A stretch of DNA of 36,793 bases from Nitrospirota bacterium (GCA_016212215.1 JACRGV010000145.1:1-36793); one strand, 5' to 3'. Shown: positions 3,078 through 36,594, counted from the stretch's first letter. The notes: generated by a model from the sequence alone, not told the origin. Numbers and translations: made by a program.

Positions 3078-3252
3078 GTCGGATGAACTTTCATGAGCGG
3101 GGCGCTCACAAAGGGAAATGAAAATAGTAAACAGTAAGCAGTGAGCAGTAAACAGGAAAGGCAGTCTTTATCTGCTAACTGCTTACTGCTTACTTGGGGT
3201 CATTTTCGGATGAACCCTCATGAACCGAGGGTTCACAAATGGCAATGAAAAT
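3078..3252. repeat. Composite R2-R3-R2 repeat, first locus
   Basis: Two R2 modules (about 3078-3124 and 3201-3252) flank an R3 block. R2 carries a hairpin TGAGCG-GGG-CGCTCA (3094-3108) in the first and TGAACC-GAG-GGTTCA (3221-3235) in the second. R3 (about 3125-3198) is made of direct AGTAAACAGT/AGTAAGCAGT-like units, a central AGTCTTTATCTGCTAACTG, and inverted units (CTGCTTACTGCTTACTT), so it can fold on itself. The same order, with the same central sequence, recurs at 36414-36594. It follows secA directly. Confidence 0.85.
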
Positions 3253-3330
3253 CAGCTGGACAGTAATGTCCCGCCTATCCTCGTGAAATTGGATAGGCGG
3301 GGTTTTCTTACCCCGCCGGAGAGGATTTTT
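3253..3330. repeat. R4 triple-hairpin repeat, copy a
   Basis: About 80 bp closely matching 23044-23120. Three successive hairpins are visible: GCTGGACA-GTAA-TGTCCCGC (one mismatch), CCTATCC paired with GGATAGG, and GGCGGGG-TTTTCTTA-CCCCGCC. The last two share two G residues and so cannot both form completely. The right end supplies the purine-rich GGAGAGG that serves as ribosome-binding site for the next gene. The left end follows the R2 terminus ATGAAAAT. Role is inferred: 5' leader structure, attenuator or mobile palindrome. Confidence 0.8.
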
Positions 3331-3332
3331 GA

Positions 3333-4418
3333 GTGAATCTGAAACAGGAAAACACAGAACTTAAATCAGTCCTGCAGCAGATGAAAAAAGAACTCTCCTT
3401 TTTCATAAGCGTTGGGAAAGCCCTGACATCCACACTTGAAGTTGATAAGGTATTAGATATCATTATGGAAAATGTACATAAACTGGTATCTTCCGAGTCA
3501 TGGTCTCTTCTTTTGTCGGATGTAGAAAGAAATGACCTGTACTATGCAATAACAAAGGGCCGACAGATGGAGGGACAGAGCAGCCGCCGCATAACAAGCG
3601 GGAAAGGCATTGCAGGATGGGTCGCTGAAAATGGAAAGCCTTTGATTGTACATAATGTTCCCAACAGTAAACGCTTTTCAATTTATTACAAAGAACATAA
3701 TAAGGGTTTTATCCCCAGAGATGTAATGTGCATTCCAATAATAAATAAAAAGAAGACCATCGGCGTCCTTGAGATAATCAATAAAAAGAACCGAACACCA
3801 TTTACAAAAAAAGACAAAGAACTCATGCTGAAGTTGATAGACCAGGCTGCTATTGCAATTGAGCGATCCGACCTTTATCAAAGGATGGCAAATCTTGCTG
3901 TAACAGATGACCTCACAAAACTCTTTAATCTAAGGTATCTGTATAGGGCGCTTAATTCTGAGTTAAAAAGGAGCAGGAGATATAATTCAAGGTTTTCTGT
4001 GATTTTTCTTGATCTGGACTCATTCAAGCTTGTCAATGACAGACACGGGCATCTCGCCGGCAGTAAAACACTAGTTGAGGTAGCGGGGCTGTTATTAAAT
4101 GCATTAAGAGATGTGGATATTATATCCCGTTACGGCGGTGATGAGTTCGTTATAGTATTACCTCATACTCCGGTTGATGTAGCCTTAAGTATTGCAAAAC
4201 GTATCCAGGAAGATATTAATAATCATACGTTCCTCACTGACGATGGGTTGTGCCTGAGAATTACAGCGAGCTTTGGTATTGCAGGTTATCCTGAACACGC
4301 AAAAGACGAGATCGAACTCCTGAAATTATCCGACCAGGCCATGTACATGGCAAAAAGTCTGGGTAAGAACAGGGTTGTCCTTACCTCCACCGTCCCGGCA
4401 TTAACCGACAAAAGCTGA
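3333..4418 (+). CDS. GAF-GGDEF diguanylate cyclase
   Basis: Predicted to make cyclic di-GMP from two GTP. A short N-terminal helix (1-25) leads into a GAF sensor domain (about 30-180) and a GGDEF domain (about 190-350). The catalytic GGDEF is intact at 268-272, and the substrate-side DLDSFKLVNDRHGH is at 227-240. An inhibitory I-site RxxD (R259, D262) lies exactly five residues before GGDEF, so product feedback inhibition is expected. No transmembrane segment or signal peptide is seen, so it is probably cytosolic, sensing a small ligand through GAF. The start is GTG at 3333 with GGAGAGG at 3318-3324. Both the binding site and the start lie at the right end of an R4 repeat. No functional partner is adjacent; the ligand cannot be told from sequence. 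Confidence 0.93.
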   Translation: MNLKQENTELKSVLQQMKKELSFFISVGKALTSTLEVDKVLDIIMENVHKLVSSESWSLLLSDVERNDLYYAITKGRQMEGQSSRRITSGKGIAGWVAENGKPLIVHNVPNSKRFSIYYKEHNKGFIPRDVMCIPIINKKKTIGVLEIINKKNRTPFTKKDKELMLKLIDQAAIAIERSDLYQRMANLAVTDDLTKLFNLRYLYRALNSELKRSRRYNSRFSVIFLDLDSFKLVNDRHGHLAGSKTLVEVAGLLLNALRDVDIISRYGGDEFVIVLPHTPVDVALSIAKRIQEDINNHTFLTDDGLCLRITASFGIAGYPEHAKDEIELLKLSDQAMYMAKSLGKNRVVLTSTVPALTDKS

Positions 4419-4574
4419 AGAAGTTCAAACTGATGTCTGATGTCAATATTGGTCACGAAAACATGGGATGATCAAATGTGAATCTCCTCCTCTTGACGCC
4501 TTAGACTCCTGAGAGTAAAATGAAACTCAATTTTTCTATATTCCAAATAAAACAATAACAACTGATTCATCTTA

Positions 4575-7500
4575 ATGTTTCCATTCTCTGAAGTAATCAA
4601 AGAAGTTATTTCTTCTAATAAAGTTCAAACAATCTCAGGCCTCTGGGGTTCTTCGAGGGACCTTTTTTTATCGCTGTTGTTTAAAGAGTTCAAGAGGTCA
4701 GTCGTTGTTATAACATCAACGCCGGAGAAGGCTGAACAATTATTAACTGACATCAGGTTTTATTCTTCCTGGTTATTTTCTTCAGATAATGACATTCGCT
4801 CACTCTCCCCCTCGCCCCCTCCCGTCAAAGTAAGGGGAATAAGTGCAGCACCCTCTGACAACATTCCTGTCTTCTTAATCCCTTTCTGGGAGCTGCTTCC
4901 TTATGACAATATTCCTCCCCATCCGGATATTATTAACAGCAGGATGTCTGCATATAATGCGTTATTAAATGGTGTTAACGGCATATATATAATTCCGGTA
5001 CAATCACTGATGCTGCGGACTGCCTCTCCGGAATCCCTGATTGATTCAGTGATTGGTATACGGACAGGGATGCAGATTGAGCGGGATTCTTTTATTGAAC
5101 ATCTGGTCAGGTTCGGGTTTGAGCCTTCTGAGATTGTTACAGGACGCGGCTTCTTTAGTGTCAGGGGCGGGATTATTGATGTATTTTCACATGGAGAGGC
5201 ATCCCCTGTTCGTATTGAATTATATGGTGATACGATTGAATCAATACGTACCTTTGACCCGGATACACAGAGGACGATTACACTTATAGATAACTCTTCA
5301 ATCATGCCGGCAAAAGAATTGTCATCATCCCAAAGCTCTTTAATGGATTACCTGCCGGAAAAGAAGATTGTGGTTTTAGATGAAATAAATGAGATAAAAA
5401 GTATTGCAGATGAATATTGGAAACAGATTTGGGATACCTACGGAGATTTATCAGAAAATAGGTCCGGTATTATGGAACCATATCAGCTATACTTATCTTC
5501 AGAAGAAGTCTCAGATTATATCAAGAGATTAAACACCGGCATCATCATAGAACCGTTAAAAATTGAAAATACTCTGAACATATCTGTAAGTACATCATCA
5601 GATTTATTCTTAGAAACCAGACGCGACCAGTCTCCACTTAAGGCAGCCCTGAAAAAATTAGAGAGCCTTAGAAAAGACTTCTCTGTCATCCTTATCTCTC
5701 CAACAGAAGGGCAGGCCCAACGCCTGCGTGATGTGATGGAAGAGCATGACATTCCTGCAACTGTAAAGCCGCCGGAAGGATTGGCCTCACTAATATTCAA
5801 CAAAGATGGGATAATTCCAATCATAGCTACTTATGGAAACATCTCTTCCGGTTTCGTATATCCTGAAGGTCCAATAATACTGGTTACAGAGGAAGAGATA
5901 CTTGGAAAAAGGGTTAAGAGGAGACCTACTGCAAAACCTAATGCCCGCTCATTTATCTCATCATTTCAGGACATAAAGCCCGGGGATTACGTAGTACATG
6001 TGTACCACGGTGTCGGGCAATACGATGGTTTAAAGCGAAAGGCCCTGAGCGGGGGTGAGGGGGACTTCTTATCAATATTATTTGCCGGTGGTGATTATGT
6101 ATATGTACCTGTTGATAAACTGGAGCTTGTTCAGAAATACGTAGGGTCAGAAGGGCATGTACCGCATATAGATAAACTACAGAGTACAAGGTGGGAGAAT
6201 ACCAGAAAGCGTGTTCAGAAGGCCGTAGACGAGATTGCCTCTGAACTTGTTGAGCTATATGCTGCAAGGGAACTGATGGAGGGGTTTGCGTATTCAAATG
6301 ATAACTACATGCTAAAGGAGTTTGAGACATCTTTTGAATATGAGGAGACCCCTGACCAGTTATCTGCTATTGAAGACGTTAAAAAGGATATGGAGTCTCA
6401 CAAACCAATGGACCGCCTGGTGTGTGGAGATGTTGGATATGGAAAGACAGAGGTTGCCCTCAGGGCCGCTTGTAAGGCTGTAATTGATAACAAACAGGCG
6501 GCTATACTTGTTCCTACGACCCTTCTGGCCCAGCAGCACTTTCAAACCTTTTCACAAAGGTTCGCTGCTTTTCCGCTTAAAGTAGAAATGCTTTCCCGTT
6601 TCCGTACTGCTCAGGAACAGAAAGAAATAATAAAAGGTATTGCTGATGGGACGGTTGATATTATTATAGGAACCCAGCGGCTTCTCCAGAAGGACGTATG
6701 TTTCCAAAACCTTGGTCTTGTTGTAGTGGATGAGGAACAGCGCTTCGGTGTGGCACAAAAAGAAAAACTAAAACAATTGCGTAAGACTATAGATGTCCTA
6801 ACACTTTCTGCAACCCCAATACCAAGAACTCTTCAGATGTCTCTGTTTGGTATAAGGGACCTCAGCATTATTGAGACACCGCCCGAAGACCGCCTTGCAA
6901 TACGAACTGTGGTTGCCCCTTTTGACAAAAGGATAATCCACTCTGCTATCTTGCGGGAATTTTCACGCGGCGGCAGGGTCTTCTTTGTTCATAATAGAGT
7001 TGAAAGCATTAACGGCATCGCCGCATTCTTACAGGACCTTATACCGGAGGCAAAACTTGGTGTTGCACACGGTCAGATGAAGGAAAGCGTACTTGAAGAT
7101 GTCATGATTAAATTTATTAATGGTGAATATAATCTTATGGTCTGTACAGCCATAATTGAATCAGGGCTTGATATACCCTCAGCCAATACTATCATAATTA
7201 ACAGGGCTGACCTGTTCGGTCTTTCAGAATTGTATCAGCTCAGGGGACGAGTTGGAAGGTCCGGTCATCAGGCTTATGCTTATCTTTTGGTACCGGGAGA
7301 GGATTCCCTTACAGGAGATGCAAGGAAGAGGATAAAGGCTATACAGGAGTTAACAGAGCTTGGCGCGGGTTTCAAACTTGCCATCAAAGACCTTGAAATT
7401 CGCGGGTCCGGTAATCTCCTTGGGAAAAGCCAGTCAGGACACATATCATCTGTGGGTTTTGAATTATACAGCCAGATGCTTGAAGATGCTGTAAAAAAGA

Positions 7501-7988
7501 TGCGGGGAGAACAAGTGTCGGAAGATATTAATCCTGTGCTGAATCTTCAGATATCTGCATTTATCCCGGAAAATTATATAGAAAGCTCTTCACAAAGACT
7601 CTCCTTTTATAAGAGGCTTGCATCTGTAAAAGAAGAAGATGCACTTAAATCATTAAAAGATGAAATGGTTGACAGATATGGGGTATTACCTCCTCAGGTA
7701 GAAAATCTTTTCCGGGTCATGGATGTAAAAATAATCGCTGTTGCCTCAAAAGTTGAAAAGATTGAAAAGGGAGAAGATGGTATATTTTTTACGGTTTACA
7801 AGAACTCAAATATTAATGCAGAAATAACTAAATCACTCTTACAGACTTTTCCGGGAAGGGTACGGTTTATCTCAGATTTTACATTTCTATTATTAAAAAA
7901 TAAAAAAGATAAGGAGACTGAAAAAGGAATCAATGAAATTTTTGCTGATATAATAAACTGCTTGAAAGTTGTGGGACGTTATGTTTAA
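4575..7988 (+). CDS. mfd: Transcription-repair coupling factor Mfd
   Basis: ATP-dependent DNA translocase that removes RNA polymerase stalled at lesions and recruits UvrA. The N-terminal UvrB-like module holds WELLPYDNIPPHPDII (about 105-120). The RNA polymerase-interacting CarD-like domain is around 470-535 (GDYVVHVYHGVGQYDG). The translocase has Walker A GDVGYGKT at 618-625 and Walker B DEEQ at 719-722, then the helicase C-terminal and UvrA-blocking TRCF domains. At 1137 residues the length is normal, but the N-terminal module carries about 30 extra residues between DIRFY and WELLPYD compared with E. coli Mfd, including SLSPSPPPVKVRG. This matches an R1 repeat half in inverted orientation. 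No good Shine-Dalgarno precedes ATG 4575. The 155 bases between the GGDEF gene and this start show nothing notable. Confidence 0.97.
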   Translation: MFPFSEVIKEVISSNKVQTISGLWGSSRDLFLSLLFKEFKRSVVVITSTPEKAEQLLTDIRFYSSWLFSSDNDIRSLSPSPPPVKVRGISAAPSDNIPVFLIPFWELLPYDNIPPHPDIINSRMSAYNALLNGVNGIYIIPVQSLMLRTASPESLIDSVIGIRTGMQIERDSFIEHLVRFGFEPSEIVTGRGFFSVRGGIIDVFSHGEASPVRIELYGDTIESIRTFDPDTQRTITLIDNSSIMPAKELSSSQSSLMDYLPEKKIVVLDEINEIKSIADEYWKQIWDTYGDLSENRSGIMEPYQLYLSSEEVSDYIKRLNTGIIIEPLKIENTLNISVSTSSDLFLETRRDQSPLKAALKKLESLRKDFSVILISPTEGQAQRLRDVMEEHDIPATVKPPEGLASLIFNKDGIIPIIATYGNISSGFVYPEGPIILVTEEEILGKRVKRRPTAKPNARSFISSFQDIKPGDYVVHVYHGVGQYDGLKRKALSGGEGDFLSILFAGGDYVYVPVDKLELVQKYVGSEGHVPHIDKLQSTRWENTRKRVQKAVDEIASELVELYAARELMEGFAYSNDNYMLKEFETSFEYEETPDQLSAIEDVKKDMESHKPMDRLVCGDVGYGKTEVALRAACKAVIDNKQAAILVPTTLLAQQHFQTFSQRFAAFPLKVEMLSRFRTAQEQKEIIKGIADGTVDIIIGTQRLLQKDVCFQNLGLVVVDEEQRFGVAQKEKLKQLRKTIDVLTLSATPIPRTLQMSLFGIRDLSIIETPPEDRLAIRTVVAPFDKRIIHSAILREFSRGGRVFFVHNRVESINGIAAFLQDLIPEAKLGVAHGQMKESVLEDVMIKFINGEYNLMVCTAIIESGLDIPSANTIIINRADLFGLSELYQLRGRVGRSGHQAYAYLLVPGEDSLTGDARKRIKAIQELTELGAGFKLAIKDLEIRGSGNLLGKSQSGHISSVGFELYSQMLEDAVKKMRGEQVSEDINPVLNLQISAFIPENYIESSSQRLSFYKRLASVKEEDALKSLKDEMVDRYGVLPPQVENLFRVMDVKIIAVASKVEKIEKGEDGIFFTVYKNSNINAEITKSLLQTFPGRVRFISDFTFLLLKNKKDKETEKGINEIFADIINCLKVVGRYV
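4800..4845. repeat. R1-derived segment inside mfd
   Basis: The run CTCACTCTCCCCCTCGCCCC followed by CTCCCGTCAA aligns with the reverse complement of the R1 copy at 8961-9000, matching at 28 of 32 positions by eye. It is read in frame and encodes a Ser/Pro-rich peptide ending PVKVRG. Flanking codons show an imperfect duplication (Ser-Asp-Asn-Asp-Ile before, Ser-Asp-Asn-Ile after), which could be a decayed target duplication. Confidence 0.65.
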
Positions 7989-8035
7989 ATTATCTGATTC
8001 AAAAGTACAATTTAACAATTTCCAAAGGAGCTATG

Positions 8036-8941
8036 ATGAGAAAAAAGATTTTTGTATATGTAGTTGCATGTAGTCTGCTTTTCATTTCCACTGCTTGTGA
8101 AAAGGGAGAAAAAACATCGAAAAGTGGGGGCGGAGGCAGTGATACTGTTGTAGCCAAGATTAATAATGAAAAGATAACTCTATCTGATTTTAATGAGAGG
8201 CTTAAAGAAGTTCCGCAATTGGCACATGGAGGGGACGTTGACCTTCAGACTAAAAAAGGTTTTCTTGATAACCTAATAGTCAGGGAGTTACTTTATCAGG
8301 AGGCATTAAAGAGCGGCATAGATAAAGATAAGGAGACTGCAAAATTTATTGAAGAGATGAAGAAGAGGGTTGTTGTTGAAAGATTTTTCAAAAAAGAGAT
8401 AGATGAAAAGGCAAAGGTCAGTGAAGAAGACCTGAAAAAATATTATAATGAAAATCCTGAAGAGGCAAAAAATCCTGTTGATGTCAGGGTAGCTCATATA
8501 TTAGTAAAAAGCCGTGAAGAGGCAGATATGATAAAAAATAAAATTAAATCCGGCGCCAAGTTTGAGGATATGGCAAAGGCATACTCCATTGATCATGGAA
8601 GTAAGGTAAAGGGTGGAGATTTAGGATTCTTTTCCAAGGGGATGATGGTACCTGAGTTTGAAGATGCAGCATTTAAGTTAAAAAAGGGTGAGGTGAGTGA
8701 CCTTGTTCAAACCAGATATGGTTTCCACATTATAAAGCTGATAGATAAAAAAGAGGGTAAGGCAAGGGGCTTTGATGAGGTTAAAAAAGATTTGGAAAAC
8801 AAACTAATAAACAAAAGAAGAAAAGATTCCTTTGATTCTATGGTTGCAGGATTAAAATCAAAGGCAAAGATTACAATAAACGAAGAATTATTAAAACAGG
8901 GTTCTCCAGAGATGCCGCAGGGTCATCCGGAAATAAAATAA
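8036..8941 (+). CDS. PpiC/PrsA-type peptidyl-prolyl isomerase lipoprotein
   Basis: Periplasmic foldase of the SurA/PrsA/PpiC (parvulin) family. A signal peptide of about 20 residues ends at a lipobox-like ISTAC, predicting a lipid-anchored Cys. A Ser-Gly-rich linker follows, then a SurA-N-like helical region (about 35-145) and one complete rotamase domain (about 149-240). That domain has the family motifs VAHILV, GGDLGFF, MVPEFEDAAF and YGFHIIKL. Two adjacent ATGs occur at 8033 and 8036. AGGAG at 8026-8030 is only 2 nt from the first but 5 nt from the second, so 8036 is preferred. It probably assists outer-membrane protein folding with the SurA-like gene that follows. The residue at lipobox position -3 is Ser, which is less usual, so anchoring is likely but not certain. 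Confidence 0.93.
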   Translation: MRKKIFVYVVACSLLFISTACEKGEKTSKSGGGGSDTVVAKINNEKITLSDFNERLKEVPQLAHGGDVDLQTKKGFLDNLIVRELLYQEALKSGIDKDKETAKFIEEMKKRVVVERFFKKEIDEKAKVSEEDLKKYYNENPEEAKNPVDVRVAHILVKSREEADMIKNKIKSGAKFEDMAKAYSIDHGSKVKGGDLGFFSKGMMVPEFEDAAFKLKKGEVSDLVQTRYGFHIIKLIDKKEGKARGFDEVKKDLENKLINKRRKDSFDSMVAGLKSKAKITINEELLKQGSPEMPQGHPEIK

Positions 8942-8960
8942 TAATGGATGAGAATATAAG

Positions 8961-9009
8961 GCCCCCCTCCCTTGACGGGAGGGGGTTAGGGGGAGGGTGA
9001 GCTATGGAG
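8961..9009. repeat. R1 repeat, copy c
   Basis: Shorter R1 variant with the hairpin CCCCCTCCCTTGACGGGAGGGG and a G-rich tail ending GAGGGTGAGCTATGGAGATT. The tail provides the GGAG ribosome-binding site of the next gene and is nearly identical to the tail of the copy at 12853-12930. Confidence 0.75.
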
Positions 9010-9017
9010 ATTTTTGC

Positions 9018-9941
9018 TTGAAACATGTAAACTTATATAATTTATTTTTAATAGCTTCAACAGCTATCCTTCTTTTTACCTTCTCCGAAGGTCTTGCAAA
9101 ATCTTTTGAAGATAAAATTATTGCAATTGTAAATAATGAGATAATAACTGAAAGCGAACTTGAAGGCTCAAATTTATTTCCTGATAAGTCTGTTTCATCT
9201 TTAATAGAAAAAAAACTTCAGCTACAAACAGCACAGAAAAAAGGTTTAATAGCATCTGAGTCTGAAATATTATCCGCTATTGAGGACATAAAAAGGGTTA
9301 ATTCATTCAGGAACGATAAGGAATTTGAAGATGCTTTATTAAGAGACGGATCCTCTATTGAGAAATATAAGAAGGACCTGAGAGACCAACTGATCATTCT
9401 GAAACTTGTTAATAAAGAGGTAAAATCAAAAATAACTATAAACAACAAAGAAATTGAAGATTATTATATTGCTAATAAGACGAAATTTTTACTCCCGGAA
9501 GAGATAAAAATTGCTTATATTCAAATACCTTTCAAATCATCAGATTCCCCAGAGGCAGTTCAAACATTAGAAAAAAGGATCAAAGATATGCTGAAGGATT
9601 CTAAGAATAATAATAAGTCCTTCAGTGAAATTATAAGGTCATTTAAAGGGATTCCAGAGGTTAATGTAAATGAAAATTCCGGGTACGTTAAAAAGGGCCA
9701 TCTTTTGAAAGAATTAGATAAAGCGGCGTTTGATATGAATAAAGATGAAGTAAGTGATGTTATTACAACCGGATCAGGCTTTTATATTTTAAAGGTATTG
9801 GACAGAAAAACTATAGATTATAGGTCATTGAATGATATAAGGGAAGATGTAAACAATATGCTTATACAGGAAAAAACAGAAAAAACATACAAAGAATGGC
9901 TATTAAATATTAAAACATCTTCATATATAGAGATTATGTAA
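9018..9941 (+). CDS. SurA-like periplasmic chaperone/isomerase
   Basis: Predicted periplasmic chaperone of the SurA/parvulin family, about 307 residues. I place the start at TTG 9018. It lies 8 nt after GGAG (9006-9009) and gives a clean signal peptide: Lys-His, then a hydrophobic stretch FLIASTAILLFTF ending EGLA-KS. The next in-frame upstream start, GTG 8997, would add seven polar residues that break this pattern and lies inside an R1 repeat. After the signal come a SurA-N-like part (VNNEIITESELE, SLIEKKLQLQTA) and one rotamase-like domain (about 155-270; VKKGHLLKELDKAAF, GSGFYILKVLD). The domain is degenerate compared with the upstream paralogue, so chaperone function may outweigh isomerase activity. 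Together with the preceding gene it forms a likely outer-membrane biogenesis pair. Confidence 0.88.
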   Translation: MKHVNLYNLFLIASTAILLFTFSEGLAKSFEDKIIAIVNNEIITESELEGSNLFPDKSVSSLIEKKLQLQTAQKKGLIASESEILSAIEDIKRVNSFRNDKEFEDALLRDGSSIEKYKKDLRDQLIILKLVNKEVKSKITINNKEIEDYYIANKTKFLLPEEIKIAYIQIPFKSSDSPEAVQTLEKRIKDMLKDSKNNNKSFSEIIRSFKGIPEVNVNENSGYVKKGHLLKELDKAAFDMNKDEVSDVITTGSGFYILKVLDRKTIDYRSLNDIREDVNNMLIQEKTEKTYKEWLLNIKTSSYIEIM

Positions 9942-10019
9942 GAAGATAAGATCAAGTATTATTCTTTTACATTTCTTTTTATATTAAAAACATAGTAGTC
10001 TTAGTAATAGCCGGTATTA

Positions 10020-10028
10020 TGTGGAAAA
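10020..10028 (-). promoter_or_regulatory. DnaA box TTTTCCACA
   Basis: Matches TTWTNCACA at all positions on the minus strand; first of three boxes in the dnaA upstream region. Confidence 0.55.
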
Positions 10029-10074
10029 ACTATATAACTAATTGTAAAACAAAAAAATTTAATTGAGATAAAAC

Positions 10075-10083
10075 TGTGTATAA
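10075..10083 (-). promoter_or_regulatory. DnaA box TTATACACA
   Basis: Full match to TTWTNCACA on the minus strand, adjacent to an AT-rich stretch on its left. Confidence 0.6.
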
Positions 10084-10245
10084 AGTGACCGGTTTATCCG
10101 GAATAGGTATTGCCTTTAAATTTTGAGTCTGTTATAGTATGTAATCCTCATTTTTAATCCTGAGACATAAAATTTAAGACAGCATAAAAATAAGTATCTT
10201 TTTGAAAAATAAGGTTAAATCAGTTATTAACACCTGTTAAAAACC

Positions 10246-10254
10246 TGTGAATAA
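10246..10254 (-). promoter_or_regulatory. DnaA box TTATTCACA
   Basis: Full match to TTWTNCACA on the minus strand, about 50 nt before the dnaA start, so it could also serve autoregulation of dnaA. Confidence 0.6.
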
Positions 10255-10306
10255 CTAAGTTAAAAATCAAATACACTAAGTATAAATTGACATGAATGGA
10301 TATTAA

Positions 10307-12815: not shown

Positions 12816-12841
12816 AAACAAACAACAAAAGTAACAAGGAT

Positions 12842-12930
12842 GATGAATATAAGACCCCCTCACCCGGTGCCCCCCTCCCTTGACGGGAGGGGGGTAGGGG
12901 GAGGGTGAGCTACGGAGATTTTCAAATGAA
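12842..12930. repeat. R1 repeat, copy d, between dnaN and gyrB
   Basis: ACCCCCTCACCCGG leads into the hairpin CCCCCTCCC-TTGAC-GGGAGGGGG and a tail GAGGGTGAGCTACGGAGATT that ends in a degenerate boundary (ATTTTCAAATGAAT). The left flank GGATGATGAATATAAG resembles the end of the R2 module at 36580-36594. Downstream to 12987, the stretch TCTGTGCCTCTGTGGTTAAA separates it from the gyrB ribosome-binding site. Confidence 0.75.
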
Positions 12931-15390: not shown

Positions 15391-15720
15391 AAGACAGTGA
15401 TTAGTGATTAGTGAACAGTGAATAGTTAGAGGCAAGAGGCAAGAAATAAGAAGCAAGATGTAAGAACTTAAAATCCCCATCACACGGATCCTCTATCATA
15501 AGGGGAGATTTCACTTAGTTTCCCTCCCCCTTGAGGGGGGATGGTAAGGGTGGGGGTGAGCTATGGTATATTTCTGATGAACCATCATGAAACGAGGTTT
15601 CACAAAAGGCAATGAAAACCCCACCCTCACCCGGACCCTCTCCCTGAGGGAGAGGGTGCTTAGTTTATTCCCTCCCCTTCAAGGGGAGGGTTAGGGTGGG
15701 GATGGGGTTATTTTTGGATG
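15391..15720. repeat. Repeat mosaic between gyrB and gyrA
   Basis: The whole gap is repeats. An R3/R5-like run (AGTGATTAGTGAACAGTGAA, then AGAGGCAAGAGGCAAGAA) fills 15394-15470. A decayed R1 copy spans 15473-15566. An R2 module at about 15568-15618 has stem TGAAAC-GAG-GTTTCA (15588-15602). A well-preserved R1 copy at 15617-15710 is nearly identical to 33-126. The right boundary TTTTTGGATGAA merges into the gyrA ribosome-binding site. No gene fits in this stretch. Confidence 0.85.
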
Positions 15721-15727
15721 AAGGAGG
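15721..15727 (+). promoter_or_regulatory. gyrA ribosome-binding site AAGGAGG
   Basis: A perfect AAGGAGG 7 nt before TTG 15735. It decides the start: the longer frame beginning at GTG 15696 would place this site inside the coding region and would translate the end of an R1 repeat. Confidence 0.8.
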
Positions 15728-22960: not shown

Positions 22961-23034
22961 GTAAGAAGTTAGAGGTTAGAAGCAAGAAGTTAGAAAGAAA
23001 ATTATTATGCAAATTCCCTCCCCTTCAAGGGGAG
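22961..23034. repeat. R5 run and half R1 repeat
   Basis: Units of the type AGAAGTTAGAGGTTAGAAGC and AAGAAGTTAGAA fill about 22961-23000. They resemble the runs at 15430-15465 and 36385-36410. A single R1 hairpin half, CCCTCCCCTTCAAGGGGAG, follows at 23015-23034 and is joined directly to ATGAAAAT and an R4 repeat. Confidence 0.7.
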
Positions 23035-23035: not shown

Positions 23036-23120
23036 ATGAAAATCAGCGGGACAAGAATGTCCCGCCTGTCCTTATAGAAATGGATAGGCGGGGTTTTCTT
23101 ACCCCGCCGGAGGGGATTTT
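23036..23120. repeat. R4 triple-hairpin repeat, copy b
   Basis: After the boundary ATGAAAAT come GCGGGACA-AGAA-TGTCCCGC (23046-23065, perfect), CCTGTCC/GGATAGG (a G-T wobble where copy a has A-T) and GGCGGGG-TTTTCTTA-CCCCGCC (23087-23108). The end GGAGGGGATTTT supplies the ribosome-binding site of the next gene. Overall identity to 3253-3330 is roughly 85-90% by eye. Confidence 0.8.
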
Positions 23121-23123
23121 AGT

Positions 23124-23927
23124 ATGAAAGAAATCTTTGAGAAACTGTATGACCTTCCTGTTCTGACAACACGAATCAAGAATGATCCGATAGAGTTTCC
23201 ACATCTTTATACTGACAGCAGGGATATAGAAATTGCAGGTTTTATTGCATCATCACTTGCATTCGGCAGGATTGAACTCTTTAAGCCGGTGATAAGGAAG
23301 GTGCTTTCATTCGCAGATAACAGGTGTTTGTATGATTATGTAATCGCCTTTGACCCTGATACTGACGGTAATTCTTTTGATACGCTCTACTACAGGATGT
23401 GCAAAGGAAGAGACATAGCCTGCATGATTTTCATCTTAAGCTCAGCCTTAAAAAAATATGGGACTATAGGAAATCTTTTTTATTCCTGTTATGATGCATC
23501 AGATAACATAAAAGGGGCATTACAAAGATTTGTGGATGTACTAAGAGATATTGATACTGCACCTGTCTATGGTAAAAATATCCGTCCACGGGGTCTGCTT
23601 CAGTTAATACCCTCTCCTCACAATGGCGGGCCATGTAAACGGTTAAATATGTTTTTAAGATGGATGGTTCGTCCCAAGGATGGCATTGACTTTGGGCTGT
23701 GGAAATATATTCCTCCGTCTGCCCTGATAATCCCGCTTGATGTGCATATTGGCCGTATATGCAAGAACATGAAAATGACAGAGAGAAAATCAGCAAACTG
23801 GGCAATGGCAGAGGAGATTACAGATAAATTCAGAAAGATATCACCTGATGACCCGCTTAAATATGATTTTGCAATCTGCCATCTCGGCATAACCGGTAAA
23901 TGGAAGGAGGTATTGTTTAATGAGTAA
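23124..23927 (+). CDS. TIGR02757 (DUF2400) family protein, function unknown
   Basis: Conserved 267-residue protein of unknown function. Recognisable family features are FIASSLAFGRIELF near residues 40-53, the central NMFLRWMVRPKDGIDFGLWKYI, PLDVHIGRICK and the C-terminal FAICHLGITGKW. The arrangement of helices with a late PLDxH motif recalls helix-hairpin-helix DNA glycosylases, but that is only an impression. ATG 23124 lies at the right end of an R4 repeat whose GGAGGGG is the ribosome-binding site. The gene overlaps pgi by 8 nt, so the two are almost certainly co-transcribed and coupled. Confidence 0.88.
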   Translation: MKEIFEKLYDLPVLTTRIKNDPIEFPHLYTDSRDIEIAGFIASSLAFGRIELFKPVIRKVLSFADNRCLYDYVIAFDPDTDGNSFDTLYYRMCKGRDIACMIFILSSALKKYGTIGNLFYSCYDASDNIKGALQRFVDVLRDIDTAPVYGKNIRPRGLLQLIPSPHNGGPCKRLNMFLRWMVRPKDGIDFGLWKYIPPSALIIPLDVHIGRICKNMKMTERKSANWAMAEEITDKFRKISPDDPLKYDFAICHLGITGKWKEVLFNE

Positions 23928-25390: not shown

Positions 25391-26799
<1,409 letters not shown>

Positions 26800-26868: not shown

Positions 26869-26955
26869 GGAGGGGTGACCGAGTGGTTTAAGGTGGCGGT
26901 CTTGAAAACCGTTGTGTGATGAGCACCGTGGGTTCGAATCCTACCCCCTCCGCCA
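26869..26955 (+). tRNA. tRNA-Ser (anticodon TGA)
   Basis: Acceptor stem GGAGGGG pairs with CCCCTCC before discriminator G and an encoded CCA. The anticodon loop is CTTGAAA in a GCGGT/ACCGT stem, giving TGA. A long variable arm and GGTTCGAATCC T-arm are present. A perfect hairpin ACATTGC-AAA-GCAATGT (26849-26865) lies directly upstream. Confidence 0.95.
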
Positions 26956-27037: not shown

Positions 27038-27130
<93 letters not shown>

Positions 27131-29370: not shown

Positions 29371-29527
29371 GCTGACGTTGAAAAACGCGGGGTACCTATT
29401 GCGACGAAGTCAATGCAATGGGTCTACGGCGTCAGGACTGCGGGTTCTTCGCCTCAACGTACGGGAAGTACGCCTCGGCTCAAACCCTTGTCCTTCCTTG
29501 CACATGGGCATTTTTGAACGTCAGCTT
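29369..29527. repeat. 159-bp element with 20-bp terminal inverted repeats
   Basis: AAGCTGACGTTGAAAAACGC at the left end and GCATTTTTGAACGTCAGCTT at the right end are inverted copies matching at 18 of 20 positions. The inside contains TTCGCCTCAACGTACG and AGTACGCCTCGGCTCAAAC, which can fold locally. There is no coding capacity. It lies exactly between a plus-strand stop (29370) and a minus-strand stop (29532), so it could be a MITE-like unit or a bidirectional terminator. Confidence 0.65.
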
Positions 29528-29531
29528 CTTA

Positions 29532-29813
29532 TTAGATGATTATTCGTTTCATCCTTGCTGAGTTCTGCAAAACAACCATTGCCTGATGAAGACGCTGAAG
29601 CCTTAAATTCCTTTTTCTTATTCCGGCCTGGTCATGGAATGGGAACTTTTCAGTTCGGATTGTGGTTTGAAGTTTCCGTAAATGATTATGTAATTCTTTA
29701 TAAACATCACTTGAAAAATCCTTGAGGATAAGAGGATTTAAATAGAGAAACCCATCTGAAATATCTGAAGCAACAGCAGCAAGACTCTTCCCCCGTATCT
29801 GGTCTTCCGGCAT
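29532..29813 (-). CDS. Hypothetical protein, uncertain
   Basis: 93-residue minus-strand frame between two plus-strand genes. The product is predicted mostly helical and basic at its C-terminus (RKRNLRLQRLHQAMVVLQNSARMKR). I recognise no family, and no Shine-Dalgarno lies before the ATG. It is listed because it fills an otherwise empty gap, has a plausible amino-acid composition and ends next to an inverted-repeat element that may terminate it. It could be spurious. Confidence 0.4.
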   Translation of the reverse strand: MPEDQIRGKSLAAVASDISDGFLYLNPLILKDFSSDVYKELHNHLRKLQTTIRTEKFPFHDQAGIRKRNLRLQRLHQAMVVLQNSARMKRIII

Positions 29814-29935
29814 AGTGCAGTAAAATTAACATGACAGATTATTAAAGGTCAAGCGATTGAGTTGGTATTATATCTATCTAAGAGAGACCTGTTGTAATTG
29901 AATCAGTATTTAAATAAGTTTATAATCTTTTTGAT

Positions 29936-32926
29936 ATGAATAATAACCGTGAAAACAGGATAAGGGATATTGGGCAGGAAATATATACCCATGCAATATC
30001 TGATACACCTTCAGCCTTTGATAAAAAGAGGTGGGAGGGGAGGATATTGGAATGGGCTATGAAAGATGAATCTTTTAAGACGCAGCTTTTCAGATATGTT
30101 GATGTATTTCCATCATTAAAGAGTGATGCATCTGTAATGCGGTTATTTAAAGAATATTTTTCTGATTACAATGAAGACGCCTTTAATAGTTTCGGGGGTG
30201 TTTTTAAAGCCGGTATACGGCACATACCTGAAACAGGACTTATGAGTAGGTTAACTGCAAAAGTCATAAGATCAAATATTAAACATATTGCCGGTCAGTT
30301 TATAACAGGGAACAATCCTCAGGAGGCCGTGCCTGTCATTGAGGGCATTAGGAATAACGGCTATGGCTTCAGCATATATATGCTTGGTGAGACGGTAGTT
30401 AGTGATAAGGAGGCAGAAGCTTATGTAGAAGGGTATTTGAGACTACTGGATACACTTCCGCAATTAAATATTTCCATTAAGCTATCTTCCCTTTATTCTC
30501 AACTTGACCCTGTTGACTGGGAAGGGTCAGTAATAGGTGTTAAGAATAATCTCAGGACTATTTTAAGAAAGGCTCTTCAACATAATGTTCCGGTTACCTT
30601 TGATATGGAGCACCACTATTATAAAGACCTCCTGATTACTATCTTCAAAAATATTCTTGAAGAAAATGAGTTCAAAAATTATAACCTTGCCGGCATTGCT
30701 ATACAAGCCTACCTCAAAGACTCCATTGAAGACATCTATTCATTATTAAACTGGGCAAGGGAAAATGGCAGGGTTATTACAGTCAGGCTGGTTAAAGGGG
30801 CATACTGGGATTATGAACTTGTATCCAGTGACCGGAATGGATGGCCTGTTCCTGTATTCCTTAATAAGGAAGAGACTGACTATAATTTTGAAGACCTTAC
30901 CAGGATTCTATTGGAGAATACAGATGTTATACGGCCGGCCATCGCAACTCATAATATAAGGAGCATTGCCAATGCAATAGCCGTGGCTGAAGGGCTTGGT
31001 CTGTCCTCAGATGCGTTTGAGTGTCAGATGCTATATGGAATGGCTGAACCAATCAGGAATATTGTAAAGAACATGGGTTATAGAGTACGGGTATATACAC
31101 CTGTCGGTGAAATGATTCCCGGCATGGCATATCTCGTAAGAAGACTCCTTGAGAATACATCCAATGAATCCTTTTTAAGGAGATCGTTTGTCGAAGGCGT
31201 TTCCTTTGAAGAACTGATAGCCCCCCCTAACCCTCTTCCGCAAGCTGAGAGGGATGGAGATTCCCCCCCCTTCAAGGGGAGGGGCAGGGTGGGGATGGGG
31301 TTCTGTTCCGATAAACCCTTCACCAACACTCCCCTCACAGATTTTTCTAAAAGAGAAAACAGGGAAAAGATGCGCACCTCTTTGCAAAAGGTGCGGGGTG
31401 AATTTAACAGAAAATATCCCCTTATTATTGGGGGAAATGATGTATGGACTGATGTTGAGATTATTTCTCTTAATCCGGCAGCACCGGAAGAGGTGGTCGG
31501 CACGGTGTCTTCTGCAGAACCAACAGACGCAGACAGGGCTGTTGAGATTGCAAAGGATGCCCGGATAAAATGGAGAAATGTACCGCCTGAAGAGCGTGCA
31601 TCTATTCTTTTAAAAGTTGCAGAGAGATTGGAAAAAGAGAGGTTTGACCTTTCAGCCCTTGAGATATATGAGGTAGGGAAGACATGGCAAGAGGCGGATG
31701 CTGATATAGCCGAGACCATTGACTATATGAAATATTATGGGTCAGAGATATTACGTTTAAACTCCGGAAGTCTTGGGGATTTTGCCGGTGAAACAAATGA
31801 GTATATATACAAACCAAAGGGTATCGGGGTTGTAATATCTCCATGGAACTTCCCTCTCGCAATACCTGCCGGTATGGCAACAGCCGGAATTGTTGCAGGA
31901 AATTGCGTAATACTTAAACCTTCCGGACTTTCTCCTGTCATAGGATACAGGCTTGTTGAAATATTCAATACAGCCGGACTGCCTGAAGGTGTTTTTCAGT
32001 TCCTGCCCGGTTCAGGACAGGTTATTGGAGAACACCTTGTAAAGCATCCTGACATAGATTTTATCGCATTTACAGGCTCTAAAGAGGTCGGTCTTAAAAT
32101 TATTGAGTCAGCAGGAAAGACGGGGTCTGGGCAGAAGAATATAAAAAGGGTCATTGCTGAATTGGGCGGGAAGAATGCAATTATAATAGATGAGACAGCG
32201 GATATTGACGAGGCAATTACAGGGGTTCTTGAGTCTGCTTTCGGATTTCAGGGGCAGAAATGCTCTGCTTGTTCAAGGGTGATTGTTATTGAAGGTATTT
32301 ATGATGCTTTTCTTAAAAGGTTCAGGGATGCTGTATCAAGTATAAAGATTGGGCCTGCTGAATTGCCGTGTAATTTTATGGGACCGGTAATAGACAGGAA
32401 TGCGCATAGAAAGATAAGTGAATACGTAGAAACAGGGAAACGAGAAGGTTCTATATTTATATCCCATCCAGAAATTGAAATAACGGGAATGGGTATAGCG
32501 GAGTATGGACAAGGGGATTCTTATACTAAAGAGTCCGGTAACTTTATCAGCCCTGCAATCTTTACAGACTTATCACCTGATGCACAGGTTGCAAGGGAGG
32601 AGATTTTTGGACCAGTGGTATGTGTACTAAAGGCCTGTGATATTGATGATGCGATTATGATTGCGAATTCAACAGAATATGCCCTGACCGGCGGTATCTT
32701 TTCAAGGAGTCCGGTCAATATTACAAAGGCTCGGGAAGGATTCAGTGTCGGCAATCTTTATATTAACCGTGGGATTACCGGCGCGCTTGTAGGCCGCCAG
32801 CCGTTTGGAGGATTTCGTATGTCCGGCATAGGCTCAAAAGCCGGGGGGCCTGACTATTTATTACAATTCATGAATCCGGTGTGCATAAGTGAGAACACGT
32901 TGAGGAAAGGGTTTGTGCCGGGGTAA
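29936..32926 (+). CDS. putA: Bifunctional proline dehydrogenase / glutamate-semialdehyde dehydrogenase
   Basis: Oxidises proline to glutamate in two steps. The FAD-dependent proline dehydrogenase barrel (about 80-430) shows SIKLSSLYSQLDP, IQAYLKDS, RLVKGAYWDYE (from R284) and ATHNIRS. The NAD-dependent P5C dehydrogenase (about 490-980) has WNFPLAIPAG, the catalytic pair E742 (IAELGGKNA) and C776 (GFQGQKCSACSR), and EEIFGPV. At 996 residues it is the compact two-domain form without a DNA-binding repressor domain. The linker between domains (A429 to about C458) is an in-frame R1 repeat read as Pro/Gly/Arg-rich peptide. No good Shine-Dalgarno precedes ATG 29936. mnmE follows with no spacer. Confidence 0.96.
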   Translation: MNNNRENRIRDIGQEIYTHAISDTPSAFDKKRWEGRILEWAMKDESFKTQLFRYVDVFPSLKSDASVMRLFKEYFSDYNEDAFNSFGGVFKAGIRHIPETGLMSRLTAKVIRSNIKHIAGQFITGNNPQEAVPVIEGIRNNGYGFSIYMLGETVVSDKEAEAYVEGYLRLLDTLPQLNISIKLSSLYSQLDPVDWEGSVIGVKNNLRTILRKALQHNVPVTFDMEHHYYKDLLITIFKNILEENEFKNYNLAGIAIQAYLKDSIEDIYSLLNWARENGRVITVRLVKGAYWDYELVSSDRNGWPVPVFLNKEETDYNFEDLTRILLENTDVIRPAIATHNIRSIANAIAVAEGLGLSSDAFECQMLYGMAEPIRNIVKNMGYRVRVYTPVGEMIPGMAYLVRRLLENTSNESFLRRSFVEGVSFEELIAPPNPLPQAERDGDSPPFKGRGRVGMGFCSDKPFTNTPLTDFSKRENREKMRTSLQKVRGEFNRKYPLIIGGNDVWTDVEIISLNPAAPEEVVGTVSSAEPTDADRAVEIAKDARIKWRNVPPEERASILLKVAERLEKERFDLSALEIYEVGKTWQEADADIAETIDYMKYYGSEILRLNSGSLGDFAGETNEYIYKPKGIGVVISPWNFPLAIPAGMATAGIVAGNCVILKPSGLSPVIGYRLVEIFNTAGLPEGVFQFLPGSGQVIGEHLVKHPDIDFIAFTGSKEVGLKIIESAGKTGSGQKNIKRVIAELGGKNAIIIDETADIDEAITGVLESAFGFQGQKCSACSRVIVIEGIYDAFLKRFRDAVSSIKIGPAELPCNFMGPVIDRNAHRKISEYVETGKREGSIFISHPEIEITGMGIAEYGQGDSYTKESGNFISPAIFTDLSPDAQVAREEIFGPVVCVLKACDIDDAIMIANSTEYALTGGIFSRSPVNITKAREGFSVGNLYINRGITGALVGRQPFGGFRMSGIGSKAGGPDYLLQFMNPVCISENTLRKGFVPG
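31220..31316. repeat. R1 repeat inside putA coding sequence
   Basis: CCCCCCCTAACCCTCTTCCG forms the left half and TTCAAGGGGAGGGGCAGGGT then GGGGATGGGGTT the right half. The right end, TGTTCCGATAAAC, is a decayed copy of the boundary ATTTTCGGATGAAC. It is read without stop or frameshift as about 30 residues in the interdomain linker. Related PutA proteins that I recall join FEEL directly to the TNxPLTDFS segment through a shorter linker. Confidence 0.8.
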
Positions 32927-34303
32927 ATGGTTATTCAGGAAGATACAGTCTGTGCAATCGTTACACCGCAGGGCATTGGTGGGATAAGTGTTATACGGCT
33001 TAGCGGAAAAGATGCGATTGCAATAGCATCAGGACTTTTCAGGACGAAATCCGGGAAGTCACTTACCGAAGCCATTACCCATACTATTCATTACGGATTT
33101 ATTATAGACCCTGTATCAGGGGAGAAGGCAGATGAAGTTATGGTGAGCGTTATGAGGTCACCAAACAGTTTTACCTGTGAGGATGTTGTTGAAATAAGCT
33201 GTCATGGCGGGCTGTTAATTACATCTAAGATTCTTGAGATATTCATAAAATCAGGGGCAAGACTTTCTGAGCCGGGCGAGTTTACAAAACGTGCCTTTTT
33301 AAACGGCCGTATTGACCTTACACAGGCTGAGGCTGTAATTGATGTTATTAATGCAAAAACAGAAGAAGGCATAAGGTCTGCGATCAACCAGTTGGAAGGC
33401 AAATTATCCAAAGAAATCAATATGTTGAATGATGAGGTTGTCAGTGTCTTGGCTAATATTGAGGCCTTTATTGATTTTCCAGAAGATGAGTTAGATATTC
33501 CTGTTGATGCCCTAACGAACCGTATCAGCTTTGTTAAAAACAGGATAGAAAACCTTATAGAAGGTTATTATAGATTGCGGCCTTTCAGGGAAGGCGTGCT
33601 TACTGCTATTGTGGGTCGTACAAATGTCGGCAAATCAAGTCTCCTGAACACCCTCCTTGGAGAGGAGCGAGCTATTGTTACACCACATCCCGGAACAACA
33701 AGAGACATTATAGATGGGACAGTAAATATTAACGGTATACTGCTGAGACTGTTGGATACCGCAGGCTTACGTACTACGATAGATGCTGCGGAAGAAGAAG
33801 GTATTAAAAGGATGTATAAAACCATAGATACCGCAGAGCTTGTCCTGCTTATACTTGACGGCAGTGAACCCCTTACTGAAGAAGATAAAAATATTATTGA
33901 ATATACACAAAACAAGAAAAGGGTCGTTGTTATTAACAAAATTGACAAAGGAAACGTTCTTGCAAAGGTACCGGATATTAAGAATTCTACATTGGTACAG
34001 ACCTCGGTTATTAAAGAAGAAAGCATTGATGAATTGAGGCAAATAATTAAACAAACTATAACCGGCATAGATACTGGAAAAACAGCAGAAACTTTTGTTA
34101 CAAACCTCAGACACAAGAATGCACTTGAGTCCGCAAAAAAAGAGTGTGAGAAGTTTACAGAGGCGAGTGAAGAAAGATTACCGCTGGAAATCCAGGCACT
34201 GCACCTGCGAAAGGCAGTAGATTTATTTGGAGAGATAACAGGTGTAGTGACAACAGAGGACATTCTTAATAAGATTTTCAGCGAATTCTGTATCGGAAAA
34301 TAA
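32927..34303 (+). CDS. mnmE: tRNA uridine-5-carboxymethylaminomethyl GTPase MnmE
   Basis: GTPase that, with MnmG, modifies the wobble uridine (U34) of several tRNAs. The N-terminal folate-binding domain (TPQGIGGISVIRLSG; CHGG) spans about 1-120. A helical domain encloses the G domain with P-loop GRTNVGKS (230-237), DTAGLR, and NKID. The C-terminal CIGK (455-458) carries the conserved Cys. At 458 residues it is full length. The ATG directly abuts the putA stop (TAAATG), which suggests translational coupling. A perfect parS palindrome begins 1 nt after the stop codon. mnmG follows after a repeat-filled spacer. Confidence 0.97.
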   Translation: MVIQEDTVCAIVTPQGIGGISVIRLSGKDAIAIASGLFRTKSGKSLTEAITHTIHYGFIIDPVSGEKADEVMVSVMRSPNSFTCEDVVEISCHGGLLITSKILEIFIKSGARLSEPGEFTKRAFLNGRIDLTQAEAVIDVINAKTEEGIRSAINQLEGKLSKEINMLNDEVVSVLANIEAFIDFPEDELDIPVDALTNRISFVKNRIENLIEGYYRLRPFREGVLTAIVGRTNVGKSSLLNTLLGEERAIVTPHPGTTRDIIDGTVNINGILLRLLDTAGLRTTIDAAEEEGIKRMYKTIDTAELVLLILDGSEPLTEEDKNIIEYTQNKKRVVVINKIDKGNVLAKVPDIKNSTLVQTSVIKEESIDELRQIIKQTITGIDTGKTAETFVTNLRHKNALESAKKECEKFTEASEERLPLEIQALHLRKAVDLFGEITGVVTTEDILNKIFSEFCIGK

Positions 34304-34319
34304 TGTTCCACGTGGAACA
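34304..34319. promoter_or_regulatory. parS centromere-like site 1
   Basis: Perfect 16-bp palindrome TGTTCCACGTGGAACA, fitting the chromosomal parS pattern TGTTNCACGTGNAACA bound by ParB. It lies immediately after the mnmE stop, in the origin-proximal region where parS sites are expected. Confidence 0.88.
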
Positions 34320-34334
34320 ATAAGGAAGGGTTCG

Positions 34335-34463
34335 AGGGGTCAAGTGGATAGTGAGAAGTTAACCGCTCAAGAGATCTAATCTCACAATAGGAAATGAAAA
34401 TTCCCTCCCCTTCAAGGGGAGGGTCAGGGTGGGGATGGGGTTTAGGGTGACCCCTTGACCCCT
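34335..34463. repeat. Repeat mosaic between mnmE and mnmG
   Basis: An outer inverted pair AGGGGTCAAG (34335-34344) and CTTGACCCCT (34454-34463) encloses two modules. The first is a decayed R2 with its own stem GAGAT-CTA-ATCTC (34371-34383) and terminus ATGAAAAT (34394-34401). The second is a half R1 (CCCTCCCCTTCAAGGGGAGG and GGGTGGGGATGGGG, to 34442). The mnmG ribosome-binding site lies beyond the outer arm. Confidence 0.7.
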
Positions 34464-34482
34464 GACAAACAATTAGGAGCAC

Positions 34483-36369
34483 ATGTCAATCTCAACTTAT
34501 GATGTTATCGTTGTTGGTGCCGGTCATGCGGGTTGTGAGGCGGTGCTTGCCTCTGCACGTATGGGATGTAAGACACTGCTTTTAACGATGAACCTGGATA
34601 ATATTGCTTTGATGTCCTGCAACCCTGCTGTAGGGGGGATTGCTAAAGGTCACCTTGTCAGGGAGATAGATGCGCTTGGTGGAGAGATGGGGAAGGTGAC
34701 GGATTCGGCCGGTATACAGTTCCGGATGTTGAATACAAGCAAGGGGCCTGCTGTCCAGGCCCTAAGGGTTCAGGCAGACAGGAATTATTATAAATCTGTT
34801 ATGCGGACTGTTCTTGAAGCGGAGAAGAACCTGAATATAGTACAGGGTATGGTTGATTCCCTTCTTATAACAGAGGGGGCTATCAGGGGTGTGAAGACAA
34901 GCCTTGGTATTGAGTATCATGCAAAGGCTGTAATACTCACTACCGGGACATTTCTTAATGGGTTAATTCATATCGGCTTAAACAACTATCCTGCAGGCAG
35001 GGCAGGGGAATTTGCTTCATCAGATTTGTCAAAAGATTTGGAGGAGAACGGTTTTACCTTGGGTAGACTTAAAACAGGTACTCCCCCAAGATTAAATGCC
35101 CGGACTATAGATTTTAGTATTATGACAGAACAAAAAGGTGATATACCTATTACCCCGTTTTCATACACCACCGGAACAATCGTAAGACCGCAGATGTCCT
35201 GTTATCTAACCTATACCTCCAATGTAACCCATGAAATTATAAGGAAAAATCTTGACAGGTCTCCTCTTTATGGAGGGGTTATAAAGGGGACAGGCCCCAG
35301 ATATTGCCCTTCTATTGAAGATAAGATAATGAGGTTTTCTCATAAGGAAAAACATCAGGTTTTCCTCGAACCGGAAGGCTTTGATAGCATTGAAATCTAC
35401 GCCAACGGTATTTCGACAAGCCTTCCTGCTGATGTACAGCTTGACATAGTGAGATCAATACAAGGTCTTGAAAACGCTGAGATTATGCGGCCTGGGTATG
35501 CCATAGAATATGACTTTATCCCGCCCACACAATTAAAGCCGACACTGGAAACAAAAATAATTGAGGGACTGTATAATGCAGGTCAGATTAATGGTACTTC
35601 AGGATATGAAGAGGCAGCAGCACAGGGGCTTATGGCCGGTATTAACGCAGCCTCAAAAATTCAAGAGAGAGGGCCGTTTATACTCAACAGATCAGAGGCA
35701 TATATAGGTGTGTTAATAGATGACCTTATTACAAAAGGGACTCAGGAACCATACAGAATGTTCACATCAAGGGCAGAGTACAGACTCCTCCTCAGACATG
35801 ATAATGCAGACTCAAGACTTACAGAAAAGGGTTACAACATAGGGCTTATATCTCAGGAAAGTTTTGAATTATTTAAAGAAAAGAGAAAGTCGGTTGAGAA
35901 TGAGATTGTTCGGCTGAGAAATAAAAGGGTAGGGATGGGGTTATTTTCGGTTAACGATCAGACAGTTAAAACAGGACAAATCTTACCTGATACAACCTTG
36001 GCCCACCTGCTCCAGCGTCCCGAGATAAATTACAAAATCATAGAAAAAATATCCCCGCCTGCTCAGACCATTAGTGAAGAAGTTAAAAAATCTGTGGAAA
36101 TAGAAATAAAATACGACGGATATATTAAACGCCAGCTTGAGCTGGTTGATAAATATAAGGATATGGAAAATAAACAGATCCCTCCGGATTTTGATTACAC
36201 ATCAATATCAGGGCTTTCAAGGGAAATTGTTGAAAAACTTGATAAAATAAAACCGGTTTCACTCGGACAGGCATCCCGAATTTCAGGCATAACCCCGGCA
36301 GCAGTATCCATTATTGCCATTACCATAGCCAAAATCGCCAGAGAGAAAAAGTTCCACGTGGAACAATAA
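34483..36369 (+). CDS. mnmG: tRNA uridine-5-carboxymethylaminomethyl synthase MnmG
   Basis: FAD enzyme that works with MnmE on wobble uridine of tRNA. The dinucleotide-binding start [11 protein letters not shown] (10-20) and the family motifs [43 protein letters not shown] and [13 protein letters not shown] are all intact. At 628 residues it is full length. AGGAG lies just before ATG 34483. In the C-terminal helical region, residues around 481-491 read RVGMGLFSV. Homologues usually have a Pro- and Asn-containing segment there, and the underlying DNA matches the right end of an R1 cassette. The last codons (Phe-His-Val-Glu-Gln-stop) are written over a parS-like site. Confidence 0.97.
35926..35955. 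repeat. Possible R1 right-end remnant inside mnmG
   Basis: GGGTAGGGATGGGGTTATTT followed by TCGGTTAAC matches the right end of R1 copies plus the boundary motif (25 of 30 positions against 15693-15722). It is read in the same frame as in putA (Arg-Val-Gly-Met-Gly). The protein length around it is normal, so it would be a replacement rather than an insertion. Confidence 0.45.
36350..36365. promoter_or_regulatory. parS centromere-like site 2, inside the mnmG 3' end
   Basis: AGTTCCACGTGGAACA, 15 of 16 matching the site at 34304. The identical stretch continues for a further five bases (ATAAG and G) outside the palindrome in both copies. It overlaps the last sense codons of mnmG. Confidence 0.82.
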
Positions 36370-36410
36370 GGCAGTGAACAGTAAGCAGAAGTGAGAGGCA
36401 AGAAGTAAGA
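36370..36410. repeat. R3/R5-like run after mnmG
   Basis: CAGTGAACAGTAAGCAGAAG, then GAGAGGCAAGAAGTAAGA. Same unit types as at 15394-15465 and 22961-23000. Confidence 0.6.
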
Positions 36411-36413
36411 TTG

Positions 36414-36594
36414 CTGATGAACTTTCATGAGCGAGGCGCTCACAAAGGGGAATGAAAATAGTAAGCAGTGAGAAGTAAGCAGTAAGCAGTAGATCCAAGT
36501 CTTTATCTGCTAACTGCTTAACGCTTACTGCTTACTTGAGGTTATTTTCGGATGAACCCACATGAGCCTTCGGCTCACAAAGGATGATGAAAAT
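36414..36594. repeat. Composite R2-R3-R2 repeat, second locus
   Basis: Same order as 3078-3252. R2 with stem TGAGCG-AGG-CGCTCA (36428-36442) comes first. R3 follows at about 36460-36537 with the shared core AGTCTTTATCTGCTAACTGC. A second R2 has stem TGAGCC-TTC-GGCTCA (36563-36577). Both R2 ends ATGAAAAT and the internal ATTTTCGGATGAAC are intact. Confidence 0.85.

Follow-up and report, generated by a model that had tools for sequence, protein, structure and literature searches.

The analyzed window is a stretch of 36,793 nucleotides from an uncultured groundwater Nitrospirota bacterium (GCA_016212215.1, JACRGV010000145.1:1-36793). It carries five good copies and one decayed copy of a hairpin-bearing repeat, here called R2, at the positions given by the initial annotation and with the stem positions and stem sequences stated there; all lie on the plus strand, and dinucleotide shuffles of the window contained none. 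R2 head 1 (3083-3122) opens with ATGAA (3083-3087) and C-TTT-CA, continues with the stem TGAGCG (3094-3099), the loop GGG, and the second arm CGCTCA (3103-3108), and closes with CAAAGG and then ATGAA (3118-3122). It is followed by a long palindrome of the AGTAAACAG type (3123-3209) that ends in ATTTTCGG. Head 2 (3210-3249) begins with ATGAA and C-CCT-CA, has the stem TGAACC (3221-3226) and GGTTCA (3230-3235), and closes with ATGAA (3245-3249); its palindrome, of the CAGCTGGACAGTAATGTCCCGCC type (3250-3337), ends in ATTTTTGA followed by GTGAA, and the GTG of that motif is the start codon of an ORF at 3333-4418. Head 3 (15577-15616; stem TGAAAC at 15588-15593 and GTTTCA at 15597-15602) is joined to a CCCACCCTCACCC-type palindrome (15617-15722) ending in ATTTTTGG and then ATGAA, just upstream of GGAGG and an ORF that by eye resembles gyrase A. 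The decayed head (34358-34401, stem GAGAT/ATCTC at 34371) sits between ORFs judged by eye to be MnmE-like and MnmG-like and is followed by a truncated CCCTCCCC palindrome (34397-34444). Head 4 (36417-36456; stem TGAGCG at 36428-36433 and CGCTCA at 36437-36442) is followed by a AGTAAGCAG palindrome (36457-36551) with the end ATTTTCGG, and head 5 (36552-36591; stem TGAGCC at 36563-36568 and GGCTCA at 36572-36577) by a decayed GAGGCCCCCTCACCC palindrome (36592-36660) whose right end is not recognizable. One more unit (1-140) has its head cut by the window edge: the window begins with AGGTAC, ATGAA, and AAT, and the palindrome ends in GATTTTCGG followed by ATGAA at 136-140.

Palindromes without heads are also present on the plus strand of the window. 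One, at 23036-23128, has ATGAA on both sides, and the ATG on the right opens an ORF at 23124-23927. A second (12836-12930) has ATGAA on the left and ATTTTCAA followed by ATGAA on the right, and a third (25415-25519) has ATAAA at both ends. A further palindrome lacking an R2 head, with ATGAA/ATAAA-like ends, was noted at 8945-9002. A different dispersed repeat, built from AGAAGTAAGA/GCAAGA units, is present in the window (15428-15465, 22971-22994, and 36387-36410) and at many chains in L087, L091, and L093, often just upstream of R2 chains. The only Rfam families above threshold in the window were two tRNAs; adjacent tRNA genes lie at 26869-26952 and 27038-27127, and their 3' halves are nearly identical. 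For R2 itself, no Rfam family reached threshold and only sub-threshold matches were obtained, at 3060-3340, in agreement with the initial annotation, which had recognized no named RNA family. A reading of R2 as an Rfam RNA or a riboswitch was rejected for lack of a match.

Distribution of R2 was analyzed in the window's genome (2.99 Mb in 164 contigs), in its relatives, and in more distant collections. The R2 frame occurred in 248 to 258 copies in the window's genome, and the same pattern read backwards gave 0 matches. About 1.0 Mb of the 3.0 Mb was read in detail, and in this portion a stem-blind search, with flanks fixed and the hairpin left free, returned 171 copies (reversed control, 0). 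The contigs often break inside R2-type repeats, for example C34, C51 (L064), C130 (L112), and C132 (L113), and the copy number is therefore probably an underestimate. All nine same-family genomes that were searched carried R2, with 1 to 48 copies each, and among 89 other genomes of the phylum one had a single match with three mismatches. Exact matches among named genomes were limited to groundwater MAGs called Nitrospirae bacterium, in a search that may not cover the window's own genome or records close to it. No R2 copy was found in viral contigs. The R2 element is restricted to a single family of uncultured Nitrospirota.

R2 had been described as a dispersed hairpin module. Dispersal holds, with approximately 258 copies, but R2 is not a free-standing RNA: together with an exchangeable palindrome on its right, this hairpin module makes up a miniature repeat unit, of which it is the left half. 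The left part of the unit reads RTGAA, C-NNN-CA, hairpin 1, CAAA-N5-ATGAA, and the right part reads AAT/AAC, the long palindrome (hairpin 2), ATTTTCGG, and RTGAA. The hairpin 2 sequences of 168 units fell into 11 clusters that have no common sequence, and these clusters fold far better than shuffles (z of -3.6 to -7.3). One head stem sequence was found with several different palindromes, and palindromes also occur without heads in the same genome. Many of these head-less palindromes have RTGAA-like ends of their own, so a strict truncation model is not needed to explain them. One palindrome is also present in another family of the phylum, there without the R2 flanks. The left (CNNNCATGA) and right (ATTTTCGG) ends of the unit are not complementary, and terminal inverted repeats are thus absent. 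In the third of the genome that was read, no autonomous, gene-bearing copy was seen. A second head subtype, with ATGAA, ACRTYCATGA, a GCG/CGC stem, and mostly A+T-rich loops, was observed at L091:2034, L096, L115, and L087:14626; in most cases it stood leftmost in its chain.

The initial annotation had proposed a 3-nt loop and stem changes that are always matched by the partner. All six window hairpins do fold as single-stranded DNA with a 3-nt loop; across the genome, loops of 2, 3, and 4 nt occur. All six pairs were Watson-Crick in 112 of the 171 copies from the stem-blind search, whereas 45 of the 54 distinct arm combinations contained a mismatch, so that paired change is the rule for copies and not for combinations. 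The perfect stems in this set were TGAGCG, TGAACC, TGAGCC, TGAAAC, TGCCCC, and TGAGCA, and the relatives added TGAACT and TGTCCC. Covariation was calculated on 172 distinct heads with 15-nt hairpins, using our own background-corrected measure and not R-scape. The stem pairs took ranks 1, 2, 4, and 5 among 780 column pairs; the outer two pairs are almost invariant and uninformative on covariation. Stem pairs ranked first, second, and third in the window's genome alone and first and second in the relatives alone. The inner three pairs were Watson-Crick in 88% of cases, compared with 3 to 34% when the partner was slid by one to three columns. The covariation first noticed in the window thus extends, well above chance, to the other genomic copies.

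The suggestion that pairing is under selection stands in a qualified form. Nine arm combinations were fully Watson-Crick, and perfect stems had on average approximately 12 copies per type, whereas the 45 mismatched combinations accounted together for 59 copies and were mostly singletons. Pairing thus seems to be needed for copying and not to be maintained afterwards. Among the mismatches, G-T (30) did not significantly outnumber A-C (19; p=0.15), and together with the one-off nature of mismatched stems this suggests that copies decay freely once inserted. Judging from these copy counts, selection for pairing appears to act while copies propagate: a paired stem would matter for becoming a parent and not for staying at a site. 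Covariation might instead arise with no selection for pairing, if intrastrand template switching or fold-back synthesis during replication copied changes from one arm onto the other. Such arm-copying would fit stems that covary while the loop and stem sequence drift, and the long palindromes likewise stay palindromic whatever their sequence. Correction on every copy should, however, erase the single-arm mismatches that persist uncorrected in 59 of 171 copies, and the mismatch types have not multiplied. Since it would also leave unexplained the constant flanks, the RTGAA ends, and the spread to new sites, we consider arm-copying unlikely.

Units join head to tail, with the right RTGAA of one serving as the left RTGAA of the next, and 67 of 177 heads were joined through a common RTGAA. 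Neighbors less than 400 nt apart were in the same orientation in 68 of 68 pairs; there were no inverted pairs. By a simple, crude ORF model, 103 of the 109 chains fall in intergenic stretches, and among chains flanked by two same-strand genes, 53 run with the genes and 7 against. The RTGAA of approximately 30 of 92 terminal right ends provides the ATG or GTG start of a long ORF, and the N-termini of ORFs started by unit ends resemble, by eye, NadB, PurD, PanE, and LspA. On the left, the head introduces stop codons in each of the three frames. Some palindromes end in GGAG or GGAGGGG approximately 8 to 11 nt before the ATG, for example at L084:6491 and L085:14387 (minus-strand coordinates), and the gene on which the element has landed may thus receive a ribosome-binding site from it.

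Two further readings were weighed. R2 could be a cis-acting RNA element (a 5' UTR structure, an mRNA stabilizer, or a translational control element) whose hairpin is under selection as part of the transcript wherever a copy lies, as the co-orientation with genes, the right ends at start codons, and the location of most copies where transcription would reach might suggest. The RTGAA target alone could, however, account for the orientation, most examined sites are empty in relatives (see below), and the Rfam search gave no match. Single-copy mismatched stems are also common, with G-T not significantly above A-C, and we regard a site-by-site RNA function as improbable. The second reading treats the stem as a by-product of a short conserved peptide, MNxHExxxHKGx (ATG AAC xxx CAT GAx ... 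CAC AAA GGx xxA TGA), given that the consensus reads open for 11 to 12 codons and ends in ATGA. It is contradicted by approximately 30 copies in which 2- and 4-nt loops break the frame while the stem is kept, and was rejected as highly implausible.

Few sites could be compared between the window's genome and its relatives, but at L091 units of the window's genome were missing in relatives, and most sites examined were empty there. At L091:8745, a same-genus genome (G001) has the uninterrupted sequence CCAAATGAAC (other extract, CCAAATGAACATG), where the window's genome has AAAAATGAA, two units, and then CGGATGAA (other extract, CGGATGAATCTTC). The insertion splits the sequence exactly at an ATGAA start codon and has ATGAA on both sides; at L091:3020, GTAAA lies on both sides of the insertion. 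Different inserts were observed at the same position at the purD start (L097:18314 in the window's genome; contig C32, L221, in G001), namely R2 units in the former and a head-less palindrome between two ATGAA copies in the latter. The purD start is a repeated landing site for unrelated palindromic inserts with RTGAA-like ends in two congeneric species. Target-site duplication is suggested at single sites (L091:3020 and L091:8745) and is not significant over 149 units, in which the left and right 5-mers were identical in 94 cases compared with 89 expected from shuffles (p=0.06). These numbers fit both a true duplication and a right RTGAA encoded by the element.

We searched for candidate mobilizing enzymes by profile. 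In the window's genome, Y1 transposases (PF01797, including RAYT) and DDE_Tnp_1 gave no match and integron integrase none above its cut-off; reverse transcriptase (PF00078) had no match in this genome, in G001, or in G002, the relative with the second-highest R2 count. Y1 genes were present in seven of the nine relatives, and no R2 heads were found in the ten Y1 loci that were read. A RAYT/Y1 linkage of R2 was rejected on both grounds, and reverse transcriptase, DDE_Tnp_1, and integron integrase are likewise unsupported by profile matches as mobilizers in the window's genome. Interpretation of R2 as a retroposed element or as an integron cassette (attC) was set aside for the same reasons. In G002, two genes, on contigs C82 and C6, exceed the family cut-off for integron integrase.

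By analogy, R2 resembles REP/REPIN repeats and IS200/IS605-type hairpin elements in the way it appears to work, but it is not assigned to either group. A covarying repeat stem is not in itself new, since compensatory changes have been reported for REPIN hairpins (PMC3116915) and modified REPs keep their complementarity (PMC2817692). Like R2, REP/REPIN repeats are short extragenic hairpins present in hundreds of copies, with a constant unpaired flank and in clusters (PMC3116915, PMC2817692), and they form two-hairpin units whose arms stay complementary through compensatory changes. The constant GT(A/G)G head (GTAG) of REP/REPIN is missing in R2, where the tag (NNN+C) before the stem varies (CGTC, TCCC, CCTC, TGTC, CCAC, and others). 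REP/REPIN also form inverted pairs and are moved by RAYT (TnpA_REP), whereas R2 pairs are always direct, the R2-rich window's genome has no RAYT, hairpin 2 is unrelated between units, and units end at RTGAA. CGTC, with the variants TGTC and CCTC, defines one REP superfamily that also occurs without a transposase (PMC3733652). In R2, CGTC is the most frequent tag, followed by TCCC, CCTC, and TGTC: CGTC precedes the stem in 44 of 171 heads of the window's genome and 19 of 73 in relatives, and 78 of the 171 have CGTC, TGTC, or CCTC, the other heads lacking these tags; no associated transposase was found in either system. The CGTC-tagged REPs, however, have an 8-9 bp stem and a 4-5 nt loop (PMC3733652), compared with 6 bp and 2-4 nt in R2; their stem starts with AT pairs, whereas in R2 the outer A faces C; and they form inverted dimers in place of direct chains fused to a second long palindrome. 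Given its variable tag and the differences in stem, in loop, and in the orientation of dimers, we did not file R2 as a REP member.

IS200/IS605-type elements are asymmetric, have a hairpin near each end and no terminal inverted repeats, and insert beside a short fixed sequence. The R2 unit is similar in its two hairpins, its lack of terminal inverted repeats, and its ends at RTGAA, and differs in its exchangeable hairpin 2 and in that no Y1 transposase was found in the R2-richest genome. Mainly from background knowledge, BOX/RUP of Streptococcus pneumoniae (PMC3049150) is comparable in being modular, intergenic, non-coding, and of high copy number. BOX modules are defined by sequence. The interior of the R2 unit, in contrast, is any of many palindromes.

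Taken together, we favor, at roughly two chances in three, the reading of the R2 unit as a miniature mobile DNA element, non-autonomous and limited to one Nitrospirota family, in which R2 is the left half with hairpin 1. The unit would move via a folded single strand, more likely DNA than RNA. A trans-acting enzyme would recognize the folded hairpin and its unpaired flanks and not the sequence of the stem. Only copies with paired stems would be copied on, so that new stems would spread once both arms match and mismatched copies would be dead ends. Insertion at RTGAA would keep upstream stop codons and the downstream ATG or GTG intact, which would explain why the element is tolerated at operon junctions, and regeneration of RTGAA on insertion would explain the growth of chains. 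More tentatively, R2 may reflect a structure-recognizing mobile-DNA system with no fixed arm sequence, in which one enzyme inserts unrelated but structurally similar hairpins at RTGAA gene junctions; this is possible, though we would not expect it.

If recognition were by structure only, both the head stem and the long palindrome would be replaceable at will, and the stem could diversify freely between active lineages. The R2 unit swaps its whole interior for unrelated palindromes and yet keeps its frame and its gene-start landing sequence, in the R2-richest genome, where searches for four mobilizer families found none; the mobilizing enzyme, once found, would directly test structure-only recognition. 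The hundreds of R2 copies form a natural data set that distinguishes hairpins able to propagate from those that are not, and that separates selection in transposition from selection in place.
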